Made by a program: the position numbers and the translations under genes. The notes under the pieces are model-generated. The model ran no database searches and was not told the origin of the DNA. It was given only the letters and a program-made list of their open reading frames with translations. This document shows, piece after piece, positions 1,533-10,300 of a stretch of 64,000 nt of DNA; position 1 is the stretch's first letter, and each line of letters opens with the position of its first letter. Source of the stretch: Gemmatimonadaceae bacterium (GTDB lineage: Bacteria; Gemmatimonadota; Gemmatimonadetes; Gemmatimonadales; Gemmatimonadaceae); assembly GCA_020852815.1 (NCBI GenBank), contig JADZAN010000002.1:432245-496244 (forward strand), given 5' to 3'.

Positions 1533-3914
1533 ATGCTGCACAGCTCCCGCACTGCGCGTGTAGCGCTCATCGGCGTCGTGTTGAGCGCCGTCGCGGCGTG
1601 CTCGGATGCGCCTCCGGCTCCGTCGCAGAGTGTCGTGCCTGCGCCCACCGTGAAGCAGGTCATCGTCGACATCGATTCCACCGTCATGACCGTGGGCGGA
1701 CGGGCGCGCGCGACGGCGCAACCGCTCGACGCGTCGGGCTTTCCCATCAGCGGCAAGACGGCCGCGTGGACGTCGGGGAACCCGGCGATTCTGACCATCG
1801 ACGACAGTGGGCGCGTCACGACCGTTGGCCCGGGGATCACGCGCGTTATCGCCACCATCGATGGCGTCCCGGGCGATCGCGACGTCGTCGTGCGTGCGCT
1901 CCCCACGGCAGCCCTGATCGTCGTCGCGATGGCGCGCCAGAACCTCAGGGTCGGGGACACGACCCGCGCGTCGGTGGCGCTCTTCGACTCCATCGGCACG
2001 CCGCTCGCCGCGCGCCCCGTCACCTGGTCGGTGGAGGGGAGCCCCACCGTGGCCACAGTCTCGCAGTCCGGGCTCGTCACCGCGATCGCTCCCGGCAGCG
2101 CGCAGTTGGTGGCGACGCTTGGGACGGTGCGTGGAGAGGTCGATTTCTCGGTGAGTGCGCTTCCGCCGGTCACCGCTGTGGTCGCCTCCGTCGCCGTCTC
2201 GATCCCGAAGTCCACCCTGCGCATCGGCGAGAACATGCAGGCGAGCGCCACGCCGCTCGACTCGGCCGGCGTTCCCCTCTCGGTGCGCCCCATCGCCTGG
2301 TCGCTCGTCTCGGGCACGGGCGTGGCGAGCGTATCGTCTGCCGGGCTGGTGACGGCCGTCGGGGCGGGCACGGCGCAGATCGCGGCGACCATCGATGGCG
2401 TGCGCGGCGTCGGGAACCTGAGCGTCATCGACACGACGACCATTCCGGGGCCGCCGCCGCCGCTGGTCGTTCCCGCGCTTCCCGATTCCTTCCCGATCGT
2501 CTTTCCGCAGGTGACCGGGCGGAGCATCGCGGTGCACGCGGGCGACAACCTCCAGGCCATCCTCGCCTCGGCACAGCGTGGCGATGAGATCGTCATCGAC
2601 GCCGGCGCGACATTTAGCGGTAACTTCACGCTCCCTGCCAAGGCGGGAACTGCTGCCACTGGTTGGGTCCTGATTCGATCGAGCAAGCTGGCGCAGTTGC
2701 CGCCGCAGGGCACGCGTGTCACCGCGGCGCATGCGTCGCTGATGCCCCGCATCAGCACACCCAACAACCAGCCGGCCATTGTCACGGCACTCTCGGCGAG
2801 CGGCTACTGGATTGCGGGCATCGAGTTCAGCACCAACCCCGCGACCTCGGTCGTCGCGAGCATCGTGGGACTGGGGAGTGCCGGTGCGGCGCAGAACGCG
2901 ATGAGCCTCGTCCCGTCGGACCTGGTGCTCGATCGCGTGTACGTGCATCCGCAGCCGACGCAGAATGTGCAACGCTGCGTGGAGCTGCACAGCGCGCGCG
3001 CCGCCGTGCTCGATTCATACCTGATGGACTGCCACGGCAAGGGATTCGACTCGCAGGCCATCGTTGGATGGAACGGACCCGGGCCGTACCGCATCGAGAA
3101 CAACACGCTGGCCGGCGCGGGCGAGAACATCATGTTCGGCGGTGCCGACCCGAAGGTCCCTGGCGTCATCTCCAGCGACATCATCATCCGCCGCAACTAC
3201 ATCTACACGCCTCCCAGCTGGAAGGGGGTGTGGACGAAGAAGAACATCTTCGAGTCCAAGGCATCGCAGCGCGTGCTGATCGAGGGCAACGTCCTCGAAG
3301 GGTCGTGGACCGACGCGCAGGTTGGCTACGCCTTCATCCTCAAGGTGGCCAACCAGAATGGCGGTTGCACCTGGTGCATCTCCAACGATATCACGATCCG
3401 CGACAACCTCATCCGGAATGTGGGGGGCGCCTTCGGGATCACGGGGAAGGACGGGGCGAACCCCATTGGCCAGCTGCTCAGTCGCCTGTTGATCGAGAAC
3501 AACTATGTCGACAGCGTGAACGTGGGGGTGTATACCGGTGTCGGACGCTTTGTCGACATCATGAACAACGCGCAGGACGTGATCATCCGCCGCAACACGA
3601 TGGTGGCGCCGGGCAACCTGGCGCAGTTCCTGGACCTGGCGACCATTCCCGCGGCGACCAACTTCACCTATGACCAGAACATCGTGTCGTACGGGACGTA
3701 CGGCTTGTTCTCGTCGAAGTACGGGAGTGGCGAGGCGTCGTTGCAGGGCTTCAACGGCAACGTATCGTTTGCCGGCAATGTCCTCATCGGCTCGCAGCGC
3801 AGCGGCTATCCGCGCGCACGATTCGCGCCCAGCCTGTCGGCGGCGATGCTGCTTGGCGGTGGCGCCGACAAGGGGCGCGTCGACGCAGCGACGCTGAACG
3901 TCGTCGTCCCGTAG
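1533..3914 (+). CDS. Lipoprotein with about three Ig-like (Big_2) domains and a C-terminal right-handed beta-helix
   Basis: A predicted exported surface protein of 793 residues. The start at ATG 1533 gives a clean lipoprotein signal, a hydrophobic stretch ending LSAVAAC; earlier GTG 1470 and ATG 1491 would add a polar extension. Residues about 35-310 hold three bacterial Ig-like repeats of about 90 residues with the typical VTWSVEGSPTVATVSQSGLV pattern. From about residue 330 a parallel beta-helix begins (GDNLQAILASAQRGDEIVID) and runs to the C-terminus. The helix keeps a CxxC (GGCTWCISND) and the block CHGKGFDSQAIVGWNGPGPY shared with both sister proteins. Similar helices occur in polysaccharide lyases and in adhesins; no catalytic set can be proven here. 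It is the first of three tandem paralogs and the only one without a visible riboswitch. Confidence 0.88.
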   Translation: MLHSSRTARVALIGVVLSAVAACSDAPPAPSQSVVPAPTVKQVIVDIDSTVMTVGGRARATAQPLDASGFPISGKTAAWTSGNPAILTIDDSGRVTTVGPGITRVIATIDGVPGDRDVVVRALPTAALIVVAMARQNLRVGDTTRASVALFDSIGTPLAARPVTWSVEGSPTVATVSQSGLVTAIAPGSAQLVATLGTVRGEVDFSVSALPPVTAVVASVAVSIPKSTLRIGENMQASATPLDSAGVPLSVRPIAWSLVSGTGVASVSSAGLVTAVGAGTAQIAATIDGVRGVGNLSVIDTTTIPGPPPPLVVPALPDSFPIVFPQVTGRSIAVHAGDNLQAILASAQRGDEIVIDAGATFSGNFTLPAKAGTAATGWVLIRSSKLAQLPPQGTRVTAAHASLMPRISTPNNQPAIVTALSASGYWIAGIEFSTNPATSVVASIVGLGSAGAAQNAMSLVPSDLVLDRVYVHPQPTQNVQRCVELHSARAAVLDSYLMDCHGKGFDSQAIVGWNGPGPYRIENNTLAGAGENIMFGGADPKVPGVISSDIIIRRNYIYTPPSWKGVWTKKNIFESKASQRVLIEGNVLEGSWTDAQVGYAFILKVANQNGGCTWCISNDITIRDNLIRNVGGAFGITGKDGANPIGQLLSRLLIENNYVDSVNVGVYTGVGRFVDIMNNAQDVIIRRNTMVAPGNLAQFLDLATIPAATNFTYDQNIVSYGTYGLFSSKYGSGEASLQGFNGNVSFAGNVLIGSQRSGYPRARFAPSLSAAMLLGGGADKGRVDAATLNVVVP

Positions 3915-4062: not shown

Positions 4063-4487
4063 TCTCGTTAGGATCGCGGACCGGGACGCCGCGCCTCGCG
4101 GTCAACGGTGGCCACACCTCCCGCAGGGCCGGCGCCATTGCCCGCAGCCGTGCCTGCCCGTTGCGTGACGTGGCGCACACTTCAGCGCCGCGCTGACGAT
4201 CATTCGTGACCGTTAGGCACGTCCGGACGTCTGTGTCGCGAATGCTGACACCCGCGACCCCAGCGTCGCCGGAACGGTTCTGTACAGTCGTTGTGTGTTA
4301 GGTCACATCGCGAGCGGGACTTCGGTCATAACAGCACGGATTCCCCCCTGAATAGCTTCCGCCCGCTTTCCGGCATCGTGATTCGCGTCTCACACGTTGC
4401 CCGCTGGGGCGGACGAAATGTCCGCCGCCCCGCGACCTCACCTATCACGACATCGGCAGGATCGCTTCACGCCGTCCTCGGCGCTGG
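4063..4487. other. Intergenic leader upstream of the first riboswitch
   Basis: No gene is supported here. The stretch contains three more GTTAGG motifs (4067, 4212, 4297). The sequence TTGTGTGTTA at 4291-4300 resembles TTGTGTTAAC at 7076-7085 ahead of the second riboswitch, so it may mark the promoter region of the riboswitch transcript. No clean -35/-10 pair can be assigned. Confidence 0.3.
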
Positions 4488-4580
4488 ACGCGACAAAGGC
4501 AAAACCGTCGAAAGACGGTGACGCAAAGCCACGAGGCTACTGTACGCGCGCGCGTACCACGCCAGTCGAGCCGCCGAACA
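4488..4580 (+). promoter_or_regulatory. GEMM-I-type cyclic-dinucleotide riboswitch (copy 1)
   Basis: The sequence follows the GEMM-I aptamer layout: AAAGGCAAAACC, then a stem closed by a GAAA tetraloop (CCGTC 4505-4509, GAAA 4510-4513, GACGG 4514-4518). Next come GACGCAAAGCC (4520-4530) with ACGAGGCTAC, a second hairpin (GTACGCG/CGCGTAC), and the 3' segment GCCAGTCGAGCCGCCGAAC (4561-4579). The 21-base core 4520-4540 is identical to copy 2 at 7230-7250. The aptamer ends about 25 bases before the ATG at 4605 and its ribosome site, so control of translation or early termination is possible. GEMM-I RNAs sense c-di-GMP, and a subclass senses 3',3'-cGAMP; I cannot tell which applies here. Confidence 0.85.
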
Positions 4581-4604
4581 CTCCATTCCTTCTCGAGAGG
4601 ACCC

Positions 4605-6731
4605 ATGAAGCACCGGAATTGGCGGCTCAGTGCCGGCACACCACTGTTCGCGCTCCTGATCGTTGCTGCCTGCTCGGAGCATGACCAAACCCTGGGCACC
4701 CGGGCGCTGTCGCCCGACGTGAGCAGGATCGTTACCCTGTCGGCGACGCAGACTGTCCTGCTGAACGACTCCGTCAACGTCACGTCGATCAGCAGCCTGG
4801 CGTCGATGTCGATGTCAGTCGGCGGTGTTACCACCTCATTCCCCGTCACTTGGAAGTCGACCGCGCCGTCCATCGCCTCGGTCAGCAGCAAGGGGATGGT
4901 GTTGGCCAAGGCAGTCGGGTCGGCGAAGATCATCGCCGCCTACAGCACGCTTGCCGACACCGTCCCCGTCTCCGTCGTGGCCTCCATCACGCCAGTGGCG
5001 AGTGTCACCATCACGGGGACCACCTCCTCCATCTCGCTGGCTGCGAGCACCCAGCTCACCGCCGTCCCGCGCGACTCCACCGGTGCCGTCGTTCCCGGCG
5101 CACGCATGTCGTGGTCCTCCGCCACGCCGGCCATCGCCGCGGTGACGTCGAGCGGGCTGGTGTCCGGGACCGGCGTCGGTAAAACGGTCGTCACCGTCAC
5201 GTCGGGAAGCGCCTCGGGCACGTACGCGATCTCCGTCGTCGCCGCGGCGCCGCCGCCGAGCCTTCCATCGGGGCCGATCGCGGCGCCCGCGCCGCCCGCG
5301 CTCTATCAGCCGACGTATCCCACGGTCACCGGAAAGACCTGGTTTGTCGCCAACGGCGGCAACCTGCAGTTTGCGCTCAATCAAGCGCAGCGTGGTGACG
5401 AAGTCGTGCTCGCCGCGGGCGCGACCTTCACCGGGAACTTCGTGCTCCCGGCCAAGTCGGGAACGGCGGCCAACGGCTGGGTCCTGGTGCGCTCCGACAA
5501 GTCGGGCGGCCTTCCCTCGACCGGGACGCGGGTGACGCCGGCCAACGCGCCGCTAATGCCGCGCCTGTACACGAAGACCGTCGCCCCGGTCCTGCAGACG
5601 GCCGCTGGGGCAAGCGGGTGGTGGATCAGCGGGATCGAGATGACCGTCGACCCCGCGCTGACGTACATCCACTACGGCCTGCTCCTTCTGGGCGACGGCT
5701 CCTCGGCGCAGAACTCGTTGGCCAGCGTCCCCACCGATCTCGTCATCGATCGCTCGTACATTCACGGGACGCCGCAGGGGCAGCTCGTGCGGTGCGTCGC
5801 GCTCAACTCGGCGCGCACGGCAATCCAGGACAGCTACGTGCAGGACTGCCACGTGAAGGGGTTCGATTCGCAGGCCATCGGCGGCTGGAACGGCCCAGGC
5901 CCGTATCGCATCGTGAACAACACGCTGGCCGGCGCGGGTGAGAACATCATGTTCGGCGGCGCCGATCCGGCCATCAAGAACCTCATCCCCAGCGACATCG
6001 AGATCCGCCGCAACTACATCTACACGCCGATCAGCTGGAAGGGGAAGTTCTCGAAGAAGAACCTCTTCGAGGTGAAGAACGGCCAGCGGATCCTGATCGA
6101 GGACAACGTCTTCGACGGGTCGTGGCAGGATGCCCAGACGGGTTTCGCCTTCATTCTCAAAGTCGCCAACCAGTCCGGGAAGTGCACGTGGTGCTTCTCC
6201 GGCGACATCACCATTCGCCGGAACATCATCCGCAACGCGGGCGCGGGCTTTGGTATCACGGGCAAGGACGGGTCGAACGCGATCGGTGGTCTCCTCAATC
6301 GCCTGCTTATCGAGCAGAACTACATGGAGGACATCAACGTCGGGCAGTACCTCGGCGAGGCACGGCTCATCAGCATCATGAACAATGTGCAGAACGTCAC
6401 CGTGCGACGTAACACGCTTATCTCGTCGGGGATGCTGATGCAGTACCTGAACAGCGGGACGCAACTGGCCGCGACCAACTTCGCGTTCCAGGACAACATC
6501 GTGACCTACGGGAAGTACGGCTTCTTCTCGTCCTGGTACGGCATCGGCCAGGGATCGATGTCGACCTTCCAGGGGACGAAGATCTTCCAGAACATCGACA
6601 TGATCGGCGCGACGAAGAGCGGATACCCGAACGGGAAGTTCTGGGGCTCGCTGTCAACGGCGCTTGCCTCGGGCAATGGCGTCTCCCCCTCGGCGGTCGC
6701 GTCGTCCACGCAGGGTGTGATCATCCCGTAA
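4605..6731 (+). CDS. Riboswitch-controlled lipoprotein with two Ig-like domains and a right-handed beta-helix
   Basis: A predicted exported lipoprotein of 708 residues, paralogous to the proteins at 1533 and 7311. ATG 4605 is fixed by GAGAGGA eight bases upstream and by a signal sequence ending LLIVAAC; the longer reading frame from 4518 would run through the riboswitch. Residues about 30-215 hold two Ig-like repeats. From about residue 250 the beta-helix starts (GGNLQFALNQAQRGDEVVLA) and runs to the end with asparagine-rich turns. It keeps the CxxC (GKCTWCFSGD) and CHVKGFDSQAIGGWNGPGPY. It has the shortest stalk of the three. The GEMM RNA directly upstream implies cyclic-dinucleotide control, usual for biofilm and matrix genes. 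Adhesin, matrix scaffold or polysaccharide-active enzyme are all possible. Confidence 0.9.
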   Translation: MKHRNWRLSAGTPLFALLIVAACSEHDQTLGTRALSPDVSRIVTLSATQTVLLNDSVNVTSISSLASMSMSVGGVTTSFPVTWKSTAPSIASVSSKGMVLAKAVGSAKIIAAYSTLADTVPVSVVASITPVASVTITGTTSSISLAASTQLTAVPRDSTGAVVPGARMSWSSATPAIAAVTSSGLVSGTGVGKTVVTVTSGSASGTYAISVVAAAPPPSLPSGPIAAPAPPALYQPTYPTVTGKTWFVANGGNLQFALNQAQRGDEVVLAAGATFTGNFVLPAKSGTAANGWVLVRSDKSGGLPSTGTRVTPANAPLMPRLYTKTVAPVLQTAAGASGWWISGIEMTVDPALTYIHYGLLLLGDGSSAQNSLASVPTDLVIDRSYIHGTPQGQLVRCVALNSARTAIQDSYVQDCHVKGFDSQAIGGWNGPGPYRIVNNTLAGAGENIMFGGADPAIKNLIPSDIEIRRNYIYTPISWKGKFSKKNLFEVKNGQRILIEDNVFDGSWQDAQTGFAFILKVANQSGKCTWCFSGDITIRRNIIRNAGAGFGITGKDGSNAIGGLLNRLLIEQNYMEDINVGQYLGEARLISIMNNVQNVTVRRNTLISSGMLMQYLNSGTQLAATNFAFQDNIVTYGKYGFFSSWYGIGQGSMSTFQGTKIFQNIDMIGATKSGYPNGKFWGSLSTALASGNGVSPSAVASSTQGVIIP

Positions 6732-6749
6732 CAGCTGCAATGCAGGGGA

Positions 6750-6807
6750 CCGACGCGCTGGCGTCGGTGATGTCGCGGGGGGCGTCCGTTCGGACGCCCC
6801 CCGCGAC
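6750..6807. terminator. Double hairpin terminator after the second beta-helix gene
   Basis: Two perfect hairpins follow each other. The first is CCGACGC-GCTG-GCGTCGG (6750-6767). The second has a 16-bp stem, GTCGCGGGGGGCGTCC (6772-6787) with GGACGCCCCCCGCGAC (6792-6807), closed by GTTC. No U-tract follows, but the stem strength and the position 18 to 76 bases after the stop make transcription termination the likely role. Confidence 0.7.
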
Positions 6808-7189
6808 GCGTTAGGCGCCCGCGGCAACCTCGCCCCTGTCCTCCTGCTGGTCGCCGGGCGCGCCTCGCCCGCTGAGGCCACGGCCGATGGCGTCTCGCCC
6901 GACGGCGTGTTGCCCGACGGCGCCGCAAGAGGTCCGGAAGTTCCGCACGCGCCCGACGTGACATGCCGCACACTCGGCGCGGCGCCCTCGCAATCTGCAA
7001 CGGCACGTGCGCCCCGCCGCGCTCGCTTTGGCGCGCATCACACGCTCCCACTGTGACGCACGTCGCCAACTGAACTTGTGTTAACTTCATATCTAGCAAT
7101 GACTTACGTGTTACCGGTCGTGCGCATGCCTCGTCCATATGGTGACGGGCGGACCGCAACCGGCATCCGCAGTCACGTGGGCCACCGAT
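6808..7189. other. Intergenic leader before the second riboswitch
   Basis: No gene is supported. An unusually AT-rich patch for this GC-rich window lies at 7073-7120 (TTGTGTTAACTTCATATCTA) and probably contains the promoter for the riboswitch transcript. It shares TTGTGT(G)TTA with the leader of the sister gene. Exact -35/-10 boxes are not clear. Confidence 0.35.
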
Positions 7190-7290
7190 GGTCGGGGCCG
7201 CGAGAAGGGCATACCCGGTGAAAGCCGGCGACGCAAAGCCACGAGGCTACAGCGCACCTAAACGCGCCATGCCAGTCGGGCTGCCGAACG
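7190..7290 (+). promoter_or_regulatory. GEMM-I-type cyclic-dinucleotide riboswitch (copy 2)
   Basis: This has the same architecture as copy 1: GAAGGGCATACC, a stem with GAAA tetraloop (CCGGT 7215-7219, GAAA 7220-7223, GCCGG 7224-7228), GACGCAAAGCC (7230-7240), ACGAGGCTAC, a P2 hairpin region, and GCCAGTCGGGCTGCCGAAC (7271-7289). The first stem differs in sequence from copy 1 but still pairs, which is covariation supporting a real RNA fold. The core is followed at nearly the same distance by the start codon (61 bases here, 65 in copy 1). GGAGGA at 7302-7307 is the ribosome site. The ligand, c-di-GMP or cGAMP, is not decided by inspection. Confidence 0.88.
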
Positions 7291-7310
7291 ATCACGAAGT
7301 TGGAGGACCC

Positions 7311-10300
7311 ATGGAACGCGGCAGTTCTTTCGTTAGGCTCGTCACGCTGGTCAGCACCACAATCCTCGCCGCCGCATGCTCGGGTTCCGATGCTGGCGGC
7401 GTTTCCACGCCCCCGGCACCGCCGGTCGATCGCATCGTGGTGGAAGTGTCGCCGCGGATCGACTCGATCCCGGTCGGGACATCCCGGTCCCTCTCGGTGA
7501 GTGTCACGAATGGCGCCGGCGTCGCGCGCAACGTCCCCGTCACCTGGACGTCGCTCTCTCCCGCCATCGCCACGGTCTCCAACGGGACCGTCACGGCGAT
7601 CGCGGCCGGCGACGCGCAAGTTGTCGTCACCGCGGGCGCCGCCGCCGACACGGCACGCCTCACGGTCTACGGCGCGCAACTGGCGCTGCAGCTCTCGCCT
7701 GGGGCGGTCGACGCCACGTTGGGTGACACCATCACCTTCGAGGCGACGATCGTCGACCAGGCCGGGACCGCCACGCGCGTCCAGGACATCACTTGGGCGC
7801 TCTCCGATTCCTCGGCGGCCGAGTTGATTGGCGCCGGAACCGTTGCCACGCGTGAATCGGGAACGCTCGCCGTGATGGCGACGGTCAACAGCCGGACGGC
7901 AACCGCCGCCGTCCAGGTCAGGTCGGCGACCGTCTCGTCCATCACCATCGTTCCCAGCAATCTCTCGTTGGCGGTCGGAACCAACGCCACGCTTGCCGCC
8001 GACCTCCGCGACAGCCGTGGGCGCTCCATCACCGGGCGTGCCATCACCTGGACGTCCTCGAACGCCTCGGTCGCCGTCGTCGAGAAGAGCGGCGCCGTCA
8101 GGGCCATCGCCGTCGGCGGCGCAATCATTACGGCCACCGCCGGGGGAAAGTCGGCCACGGCCGCCGTGAACGTCTACTCGGCCGGCGCCAGCTCCGTCAC
8201 GATCGCCCTTCCCAACGATTCGCTGGGCACTGGGCGCACGATGCAGGCGGTGGCGCAGCCGCTCGACGCCGAAGGCAACCTGCTCACCGGAAAGGTGGTC
8301 GCGTGGCAGTCGAGCAATCCCTCGGTCGCGACGATCAACAGCGCCGGCGTGATCACCGCGCTCGCCTCCGGGAAGACCAACATCGCCGTCATCTGCGACG
8401 GCAAGACGTCGACCGTGACGCTGACGACTGCCGTCCCCGTCGCAACGACCGTCACCGTGACGCCGCCGACGGCGACGCTCACGGTCGGCACCACGTCGCG
8501 CCTGACGGCCGACGTCCGCGACCAGTTCGACTTCAAGCTCAGCGGCGCCCCGGTCACCTGGTCGTCGGCCGCCGCGTCGATCGCCTCCGTTGCGACTGAC
8601 GGCACCGTGACCGCGAAGGTCACCGGCACGACGTCGATTCGCGCCACCAGCGGTGCCCTGAGCGCCACCTCCGCCGTGACGGTTCAGGGCGTCCCGGTGG
8701 CATCGGTGCACGTTTCGCCCGAAACACTCGCCATCGAGGAAGGCGACGTGGTGCAGTTGGTTGCCACCGCGTACGACGCGAGCGGCAACGTCCTGGACAA
8801 CCGTCCGGTGAGCTGGACCGCGTCGTCGGCGACGGTCACGGTGTCTGCCACCGGGAGCGTCAGCGGCGTCAAGGCCGGGACCGCGACCGTGACAGCGAAC
8901 ATCGAGGGGAAGACCGCGAAGTCGACCGTCACCGTCAGCACGCCGCAGCCGCCGGAGGTCGCCAAGGTCACGCTCACGCTGAACTCGAGCGCGCTGAGCG
9001 TCGGTCAGGTGACGAGTGCCGTGGCGCGCGTCTACGACGCCGAAGGAAACCTGCTCGCCGTCCCGGTGACCTACGTGAGCTCTGCGCCGAGCATCGCGAC
9101 GGTCGATGTCGACGGCACGGTATCGGCAGTGTCCGCCGGATCGGCGGCGATCACCGCCACCGCCGACGGGGTGAGCGGGCTGGCGAGCGTGGCGGTTTCC
9201 GCGCCGCAGGCGGCGCCGGTCGCGACCGTTGCACTCACGGCCCCGAGCACGACGCTCTTCGTTGGTGACTCCACCACGCTCAGCGTCACGCTCCTCGATG
9301 CCGCGCAGAATGTCCTGACGGGGCGCACCATCGCCTATGCGTCATCCAATGCACAGGTGGCGACGGTCTCCGCCTCCGGGTTGGTGCGCGGGGTTGGCGC
9401 CGGGAGTGCGAACATCAGCGCGACGAGCGGTTCGGCCAGCAAGTCGCTCACCTTCACCATTCGCACGGTGCCGACGGTACCGCCGACCGTGGCGGTGGTG
9501 ACGGTCACGCTCGCGCAGTCGGCGCTCGTAGTCGGTGGCGCGACGCAGGCAACCGCTGTGTTGACCGACTCCAGCGGCGCGCCGTTCTCCGGCACGGTGG
9601 CCTGGAGCTCGTCCAACACGGCGGTCGCCACGGTGTCCCAGAGTGGCTACGTGAGTGTGGTGGGTGTGGGGAGCGCCGTCATCTCGGCGTCGAGCGGCGG
9701 CAAGACCGGGAGCGCGACGCTGTCGGCGACCGCCCCGGCTGCCACCGTGAAGACAGTGACCGTGACATTGGCGTCGCCGAGCATTGTGGTCGGCACCAGC
9801 GCGCAGGTGACCGCGGTAGCCAGGGATTCCGCGGGGAATGTGCTGACCGGGAAGAGCGTGAGCTGGAGCTCCAGCGCCACGTCGGTGGCCTCGCTGGCCG
9901 CCAGCAACACGGGGACGAACACGGCGACCGCCGTTGCAGCTGGAACGTCGAAGCTGTCGGCGACGGTTGGCGGGGTGAGCGGCAACGCGACGCTGACGGT
10001 GACTGCACCGCCGGCAAACACCCCGCCGGCGTCCACGCCCGTCACCCTCCCGGCGCTCCCGACCATCCTGAACCCGGTGTACCCGAAGGTGACCGGGAAG
10101 CAGTGGGCGGTGCACGCGGGTGACAACCTGCAGTCGATCCTGAACCAGGCGCAACGCGGCGACGAGATCGTGATCGACGCGGGCGCCACCTTCACCGGCA
10201 ACTTCACGCTGCCGGTCAAGACCGGCTCGACCGCAGCGAACGGGTGGATCATCGTCCGTTCCAGCCAACAGTCGGCGCTCCCGCCGCAGGGGACGCGAGT

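Follow-up and report, generated by a model that had tools for sequence, protein, structure and literature searches.

The window, a 64,000-nt stretch of DNA from a Gemmatimonadaceae bacterium, carries two GEMM-I aptamers, each lying shortly upstream of a gene for a large lipoprotein. The reading that we favor, with slightly better than even confidence, is that both aptamers bind cyclic di-GMP (c-di-GMP) and that they likely repress translation through an anti-Shine-Dalgarno (anti-SD) hairpin located upstream of the aptamer. The expression platform thus appears to be placed 5' of the aptamer, a position that the earlier note on this DNA, made from the sequence alone, had overlooked.

Two GEMM-I aptamers precede paralogous lipoprotein genes

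The GEMM-I hallmarks claimed in the earlier note (a stem with a GAAA loop, GACGCAAAGCC, ACGAGGCTAC, and the 3' segment) were all present in both copies, and the first stem (P2) did differ between the copies and still pair in each. The leaders had also been said to stop shortly before a ribosome-binding site and a lipoprotein start; an SD sequence, an ATG (4605 and 7311), and a lipoprotein-type signal were found behind both, with aptamer-to-ATG distances of 25 nt (copy 1) and 22 nt (copy 2). An Rfam scan of the whole window assigned copy 2 to RF01051 (c-di-GMP-I; 74.7 bits, E = 8.1e-13) and labeled copy 1 RF03167 (c-di-GMP-I-GGC; 64.3 bits against a cut-off of 59, E = 7e-13). In a search of the bacterium's own genome with RF01051, copy 1 reached 72.6 bits, more than its RF03167 score, so that the covariance search proposed in the earlier note was significant in both regions, at an RF01051 cut-off of 35 bits. 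Copy 1 is listed as RF03167 because clan competition by E value picked that label, and its likeness to that family consists in a score above the family cut-off; the RF03167 consensus is GACGCGAA, the G of which we take to be the defining base of the family, whereas copy 1 has GACGCAAA, in the style of c-di-GMP-I (Rfam alignment). The suffix GGC refers to ligand-contact bases. No third RF01051 match was found in the 5.4-Mb genome, in which 150 of 156 first-look candidates were scored. The window copies resemble the c-di-GMP-I riboswitch in aptamer sequence, fold, and specificity G, and their targets are exported proteins, which fits the name GEMM, standing for environment, membranes, and motility.

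TABLE 1 Features of the two leaders and their target genes (window coordinates)
Feature	Position	Strand	Details
Third tandem paralogue	1533..3914	+	Lipobox, Big_2, beta-helix region 59% identical; start predicted from translation (scanned from 1545)
Conserved 12-nt box CGGCAGGATCGC, promoter element or RNA strand	4454..4465	+	Upstream of copy 1
Extended hairpin P0, copy 1, 13 pairs	4462..4493	+	3' arm holds aptamer 5' strand GCGA (4490-4493); anti-SD GUCCUC at 4474-4479
GEMM-I aptamer, copy 1	4489..4579	+	G 4498, specificity base; A 4525, intercalating; C 4574, ligand pairing
Shine-Dalgarno GAGAGGA, gene 1	4595..4601	+	Read from the sequence
Lipoprotein 1, 708 aa	4605..6731	+	Lipobox VAAC, two Big_2 stretches, right-handed beta-helix (about 242-700)
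Hairpin P0, copy 2, 11 pairs/anti-SD region	7176..7202	+	3' arm includes aptamer 5' end
GEMM-I aptamer, copy 2	7198..7288	+	G 7208, specificity base; A 7235; C 7284
Shine-Dalgarno GGAGG, gene 2	7302..7306	+	Read from the sequence
Lipoprotein 2, 1,396 aa	7311..11501	+	Nine Big_2 stretches; C-terminal part paralogous to gene 1 beta-helix

The two lipoproteins encoded behind the aptamers are 53% identical over 636 residues, and their genes stand among polysaccharide and sulfation genes. The earlier note had tied cyclic-dinucleotide signaling to a family of large surface proteins. This tie is predicted for the two genes preceded by c-di-GMP-type aptamers and not for the third tandem paralogue, before which no Rfam match at an E value of ≤1 was found in positions 1200 to 1650; the family therefore seems to be only partly under the predicted switch. 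Between 17249 and 24231 the window encodes two APS kinases, one of them as a fusion with ATP-sulfurylase, along with a symporter of the sulfate/citrate type and a sulfatase, on account of which the locus looks like one for sulfated-polysaccharide synthesis. Fold relatives of target protein 1 are the RbmB polysaccharide lyase, the AlgE epimerase, and PL6 lyases (14 to 16% identity), from which it differs in having Ig domains and a lipoprotein signal attached. A search for relatives of protein 1 in named genomes found none.

The predicted ligand is c-di-GMP

Both copies have the RF01051 base pattern, namely, a G directly 5' of P2, an A after P2, and a C before the 3' strand of P1; the first of these positions we take to be nucleotide 20 of Vc2. 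Base roles were set by junction position after PMC6274999, in the available part of which J1/2 ends just 5' of P2 and the cGAMP riboswitch has A14 there. The cGAMP riboswitches of Geobacter (GEMM-Ib) share the aptamer architecture of the window copies and the one described in the available part of PMC6456294 has an A at nucleotide 20; changing this A to G (A20G) switches its selectivity to c-di-GMP. Both window copies have G at this base, so the comparison of ligand-contact positions, for which the earlier note had left c-di-GMP and cGAMP open, came out as c-di-GMP type. The available text of PMC6456294 also describes cGAMP-making Hypr enzymes as having Ser at the GGDEF specificity residue. 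The bacterium's own genome gave 23 GGDEF matches, 17 of which had a readable motif (16 domains), all with Asp and none with Ser; six were unreadable. Because of the G in both copies and the lack of Ser-type enzymes among the readable domains, c-di-GMP is the ligand predicted from sequence.

Related leaders share the layout

RF01051 was present in 39 of 60 relatives and in 110 of 158 family genomes, two sets that partly overlap. A first set of 112 sites (the two window sites and 110 others listed) was classified, two rows being reclassified by hand, into 56 window-type sites (all with G at the specificity base), 20 a-type sites (19 with A), and 36 others (13 with A). The second set consisted of 60 fetched sites plus 18 from family-genome loci (17 of 22 loci parsed), all of them the best matches of a longer list, so that strong matches are favored; 75 of these 78 were window type, and after three without a start were dropped, 72 sites from 42 genomes were used. 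This set includes one duplicate row (G158, 9582), and the leader of G167 also occurs in identical form in the first set.

The median spacing from aptamer to start was 23 nt in both sets (n = 56 and n = 72), with 52/56 and 62/72 sites at 15 to 34 nt. A lipobox followed the start at 49/56 and 60/72 window-type sites, compared with 18/160 other ORFs on the first-set loci, and Big_2 was found in 34 of the 51 first-set target proteins scanned (out of 56). Gemmatimonadota would thus gain a predicted c-di-GMP regulon of Ig-stalk lipoproteins, one of them with a beta-helix resembling matrix lyases and epimerases.

Sequences upstream of the aptamer show excess predicted pairing with the leader's own SD

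Since the spacers of 25 and 22 nt contain no U tract, a terminator-type platform does not fit, and no intrinsic terminator could be read from the sequence between either aptamer and its start. For the pairing test, each leader region was paired with its own SD-AUG and compared with the SD-AUG of other leaders (5,000 permutations). The region from −34 to −9 upstream of the aptamer gave a duplex of −12.11 with its own SD-AUG against −11.0 for permuted partners (z = −3.18, 2/5,000; n = 56), and the preference persisted with one site per genome (z = −3.12, 6/5,000; n = 25). None of six control regions paired preferentially with its own SD-AUG in the full first set; in the one-per-genome set, one control, the aptamer 3' end, stood at z = −1.95. 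The windows had been settled on the first set after other trials (for example, −35 to +4, with z = −3.87), and therefore only the second set is unbiased. There, with the windows fixed, the 72 sites from further genomes gave z = −3.02 (9/5,000), again with an own-SD-AUG preference in none of the six control regions.

The strongest signal was the extension of P1 (z = −4.54, n = 72; z = −3.84, n = 24), and the two arms of P0 also paired mutually (z = −2.83 and −2.91, respectively). These results held upon removal of the duplicate row (n = 71), with z = −2.95 for the anti-SD, −4.31 for the P1 extension, and −2.86 for the P0 arms. In the strict nonredundant part of the second set (24 sites, <72% identical to everything else), the anti-SD pairing was weak (z = −1.38, 429/5,000). 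With a narrow window on the 5' arm, the signal was z = −1.66 (n = 56) and did not stand out from that of the 3' arm (−1.76) or of one control (−1.38); among 23 very strictly chosen sites it was z = −0.71. As a separate observation, early coding sequence (+3 to +28 and +30 to +55) showed the opposite tendency, its pairing being weaker with the SD-AUG of the same leader than with those of other leaders (z = +2.7 and +3.3 for the two regions in the first set; z = +2.6 to +3.8 over both full sets), as if such pairing were avoided.

Neither P0 hairpin of the window is exceptionally stable by itself: the 40-nt stretch 4454-4493 of copy 1 folds at −17.1 kcal/mol (z = −1.38 versus shuffles), and the hairpin of copy 2 has z = −1.10. 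P0 of copy 1 includes UGGA (4485-4488), which can alternatively pair with UCCA (4582-4585) outside P1. In copy 2, positions 7176-7189 can pair with the SD and AUG (7299-7313) in a duplex of −21.1 kcal/mol. The modeled cost of exposing the SD rose from 2.3 to 4.7 kcal/mol under the aptamer constraint in copy 1, where the SD pairs in the model mainly with local sequence and not with the anti-SD; in copy 2 it was 8.1 kcal/mol with or without the constraint.

Modeling across leaders points to repression

When the aptamer and P1 were enforced, modeled pairing of the SD with upstream sequence increased from 0.27 to 0.51 in the first set (50/56 sites usable) and from 0.25 to 0.51 in the second (60/72). 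It likewise increased in controls with swapped flanks (from 0.11-0.20 to 0.32-0.36), and much of the rise is therefore due to geometry. Unpaired SD was reduced at the same time (P = 0.002 in the first set and P = 0.01 in the second), a drop clearer in the native leaders than in the five controls (P = 0.18, 0.03, 0.06, 0.63, and 0.86). The excess of own-pair duplexes supports an upstream anti-SD, whose ligand-dependent pairing with the SD is a modeled one. The start lies ≤11 nt behind the aptamer at 11 sites, and in seven of these, all of one genus (g5), a CCUC next to the aptamer 5' end can pair with the SD GAGG next to the 3' end; such pairing would make the SD part of the extended P1, in keeping with repression and a classic OFF layout.

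Given an upstream platform, the OFF direction is moderately supported by these models. In the proposed mechanism, P0 would hold the anti-SD together with the aptamer 5' strand when ligand is absent, leaving the SD free (ON). Upon binding of c-di-GMP, P1 and its extension would form, P0 would lose its outer part, and the released anti-SD would capture the SD, with the closed aptamer enclosed between the two strands (OFF). The targets, putative surface proteins that bind or process polysaccharide, would then be produced at low c-di-GMP.

The known RF01051 examples compared here differ from the predicted design. In the available parts of the respective papers, Cd1 and pilM have a downstream terminator or antiterminator (PMC9262584), and Vc1 has neither a terminator nor an anti-SD between aptamer and gene, its mechanism, like that of Vc2, being called unclear by the authors (PMC4744006); the window leaders, in contrast, have a predicted 5' platform acting on the SD. 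The Vc1 transcript begins at the aptamer, and the upstream-platform answer therefore does not extend to it. If true, an expression platform that lies 5' of the aptamer and acts on an SD on its 3' side would be an unusual design and would bear on where GEMM-I platforms hide, and the hundred-odd natural variants make the design directly testable. Among the matches listed for open-access searches on Gemmatimonadota with riboswitch or c-di-GMP, and on platform topics, no title dealt with such Gemmatimonadota riboswitches or with such a platform.

Alternative readings of the leaders

Of the alternatives, sensing of 3',3'-cGAMP, or of both dinucleotides, by the window aptamers is very improbable: they do belong to the same riboswitch class, and A-type aptamers exist in relatives, but the specificity base and the readable GGDEF domains of the own genome both speak against it. 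A c-di-GMP ON switch, in which the bound aptamer would keep P0 beside P1 with the anti-SD captured and the SD open, and in which the anti-SD or a local hairpin would mask the SD of the unbound RNA, has precedent in Vc1, a GEMM-I switch that activates (PMC4744006, available part). The core of P0 without its outer pairs is compatible with the aptamer, and a hairpin of the 3' flank with the SD is possible in several leaders (z = −1.88, n = 56; z = −2.09, n = 23). However, the aptamer 5' strand of each window copy is taken up by the outer part of P0, SD accessibility falls when P1 is enforced, and the seven short-spaced sites fit repression, so that we regard an ON switch as unlikely.

Slightly less probable still is that the upstream region is a promoter, serving another regulatory route, and that the SD pairing is a by-product of composition. 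This reading draws on the box CGGCANGATCGC, which would then be a sigma-factor element: conserved at a similar distance, it occurs ≤60 nt upstream of the aptamer, with at least nine of 12 positions matching CGGCAGGATCGC, at 32/56 and 34/72 window-type sites, compared with 0/56 and 1/72 in a control region. Either promoter function or pairing, as an RNA strand, with the ends of the aptamer could account for the box. A helix between the box and the aptamer 5' strand, proposed by RNAalifold, found no general support (permutation z = +0.92; a count at 48 variant sites gave 18, with an expectation of 17.4), which fits the promoter reading; on the other side, six GUGA sites from two genera all had the matching complement. 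Against the promoter reading, a composition effect would be expected in the control regions too, yet it is absent from both full sets, and copy 2, in which the best box match (9/12, 52 nt away) is likely due to chance, still has a strong anti-SD duplex. Both elements could also be real, with the box as promoter and P0 as platform. As a genome-wide motif, the box was discarded: 22 exact matches (against one for the reversed control) included none with riboswitch context besides copy 1, and each of the 22 fell within an open frame of some extent, such frames being common in GC-rich DNA.

A-type aptamers and serine-type GGDEF domains in relatives

Eleven of the 20 a-type aptamers are followed by a strict terminator, the 5' arm of which is the aptamer's own 3' strand, an arrangement that fits ligand-induced read-through. 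In four tandem leaders, three in genome G053 (contigs C246, C176, and C1; L048, L052, and L063) and one in G051 (C17; L038), an a-type aptamer precedes a window-type one; the second, G-type aptamer carries the box and P0, and one lipoprotein gene lies downstream. In two of these four leaders, the a-type, cGAMP-like aptamer also passes the strict terminator test. Table 2 of PMC9481103, as far as the available part of that paper goes, lists no pair that combines a cGAMP-type with a c-di-GMP-type aptamer.

A Ser-type GGDEF domain from G051 served as query in 30 genomes, and the specificity residue was read from the best match in each. It was Ser in five (G036, G044, G051, G053, and G037), Asn in four (G040, G042, G052, and G056), Asp in 20, and unreadable in one. 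The Ser-type domains (L318 to L322) retain the GGDEF motif and are 56 to 100% identical to the query, and their sequences suggest cGAMP synthesis in these relatives. Asn-type GGDEF was also seen in one further domain each of G036, G051, and G053.

Tentatively, and with clearly less confidence than in the c-di-GMP switch of the window, these data could be read as a two-messenger network in Gemmatimonadota, in which c-di-GMP aptamers with an upstream anti-SD would repress translation, cGAMP aptamers with a terminator would switch transcription on, and the four tandem leaders of the two relatives would act as a "cGAMP AND NOT c-di-GMP" gate fed by the relatives' own serine-type GGDEF enzymes. A-bearing a-type aptamers occur in nine genomes, of which four had a Ser-type and three an Asn-type best match, and two had neither. 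Against such a network stand G037 (Ser) and G042 (Asn), which lack an RF01051 match, and the 13 other A-bearing sites, whose 11 genomes include none with Ser (nine with Asp, G052 with Asn, and G012 unreadable).

Two smaller groups of elements were noted among the relatives. Four A-type elements (L109, L111, L114, and L121, in G057, G038, G048, and G059) precede genes whose 104-aa products resemble one another at the N terminus; in three cases, 9 nt separate the aptamer from the ATG. Three weaker GEMM-I-like elements (L117, L126, and L127, in G023, G029, and G004) have a 3' end that merges with the SD (GGGGAGG, GGGAGG), which seems to place the SD directly in P1.
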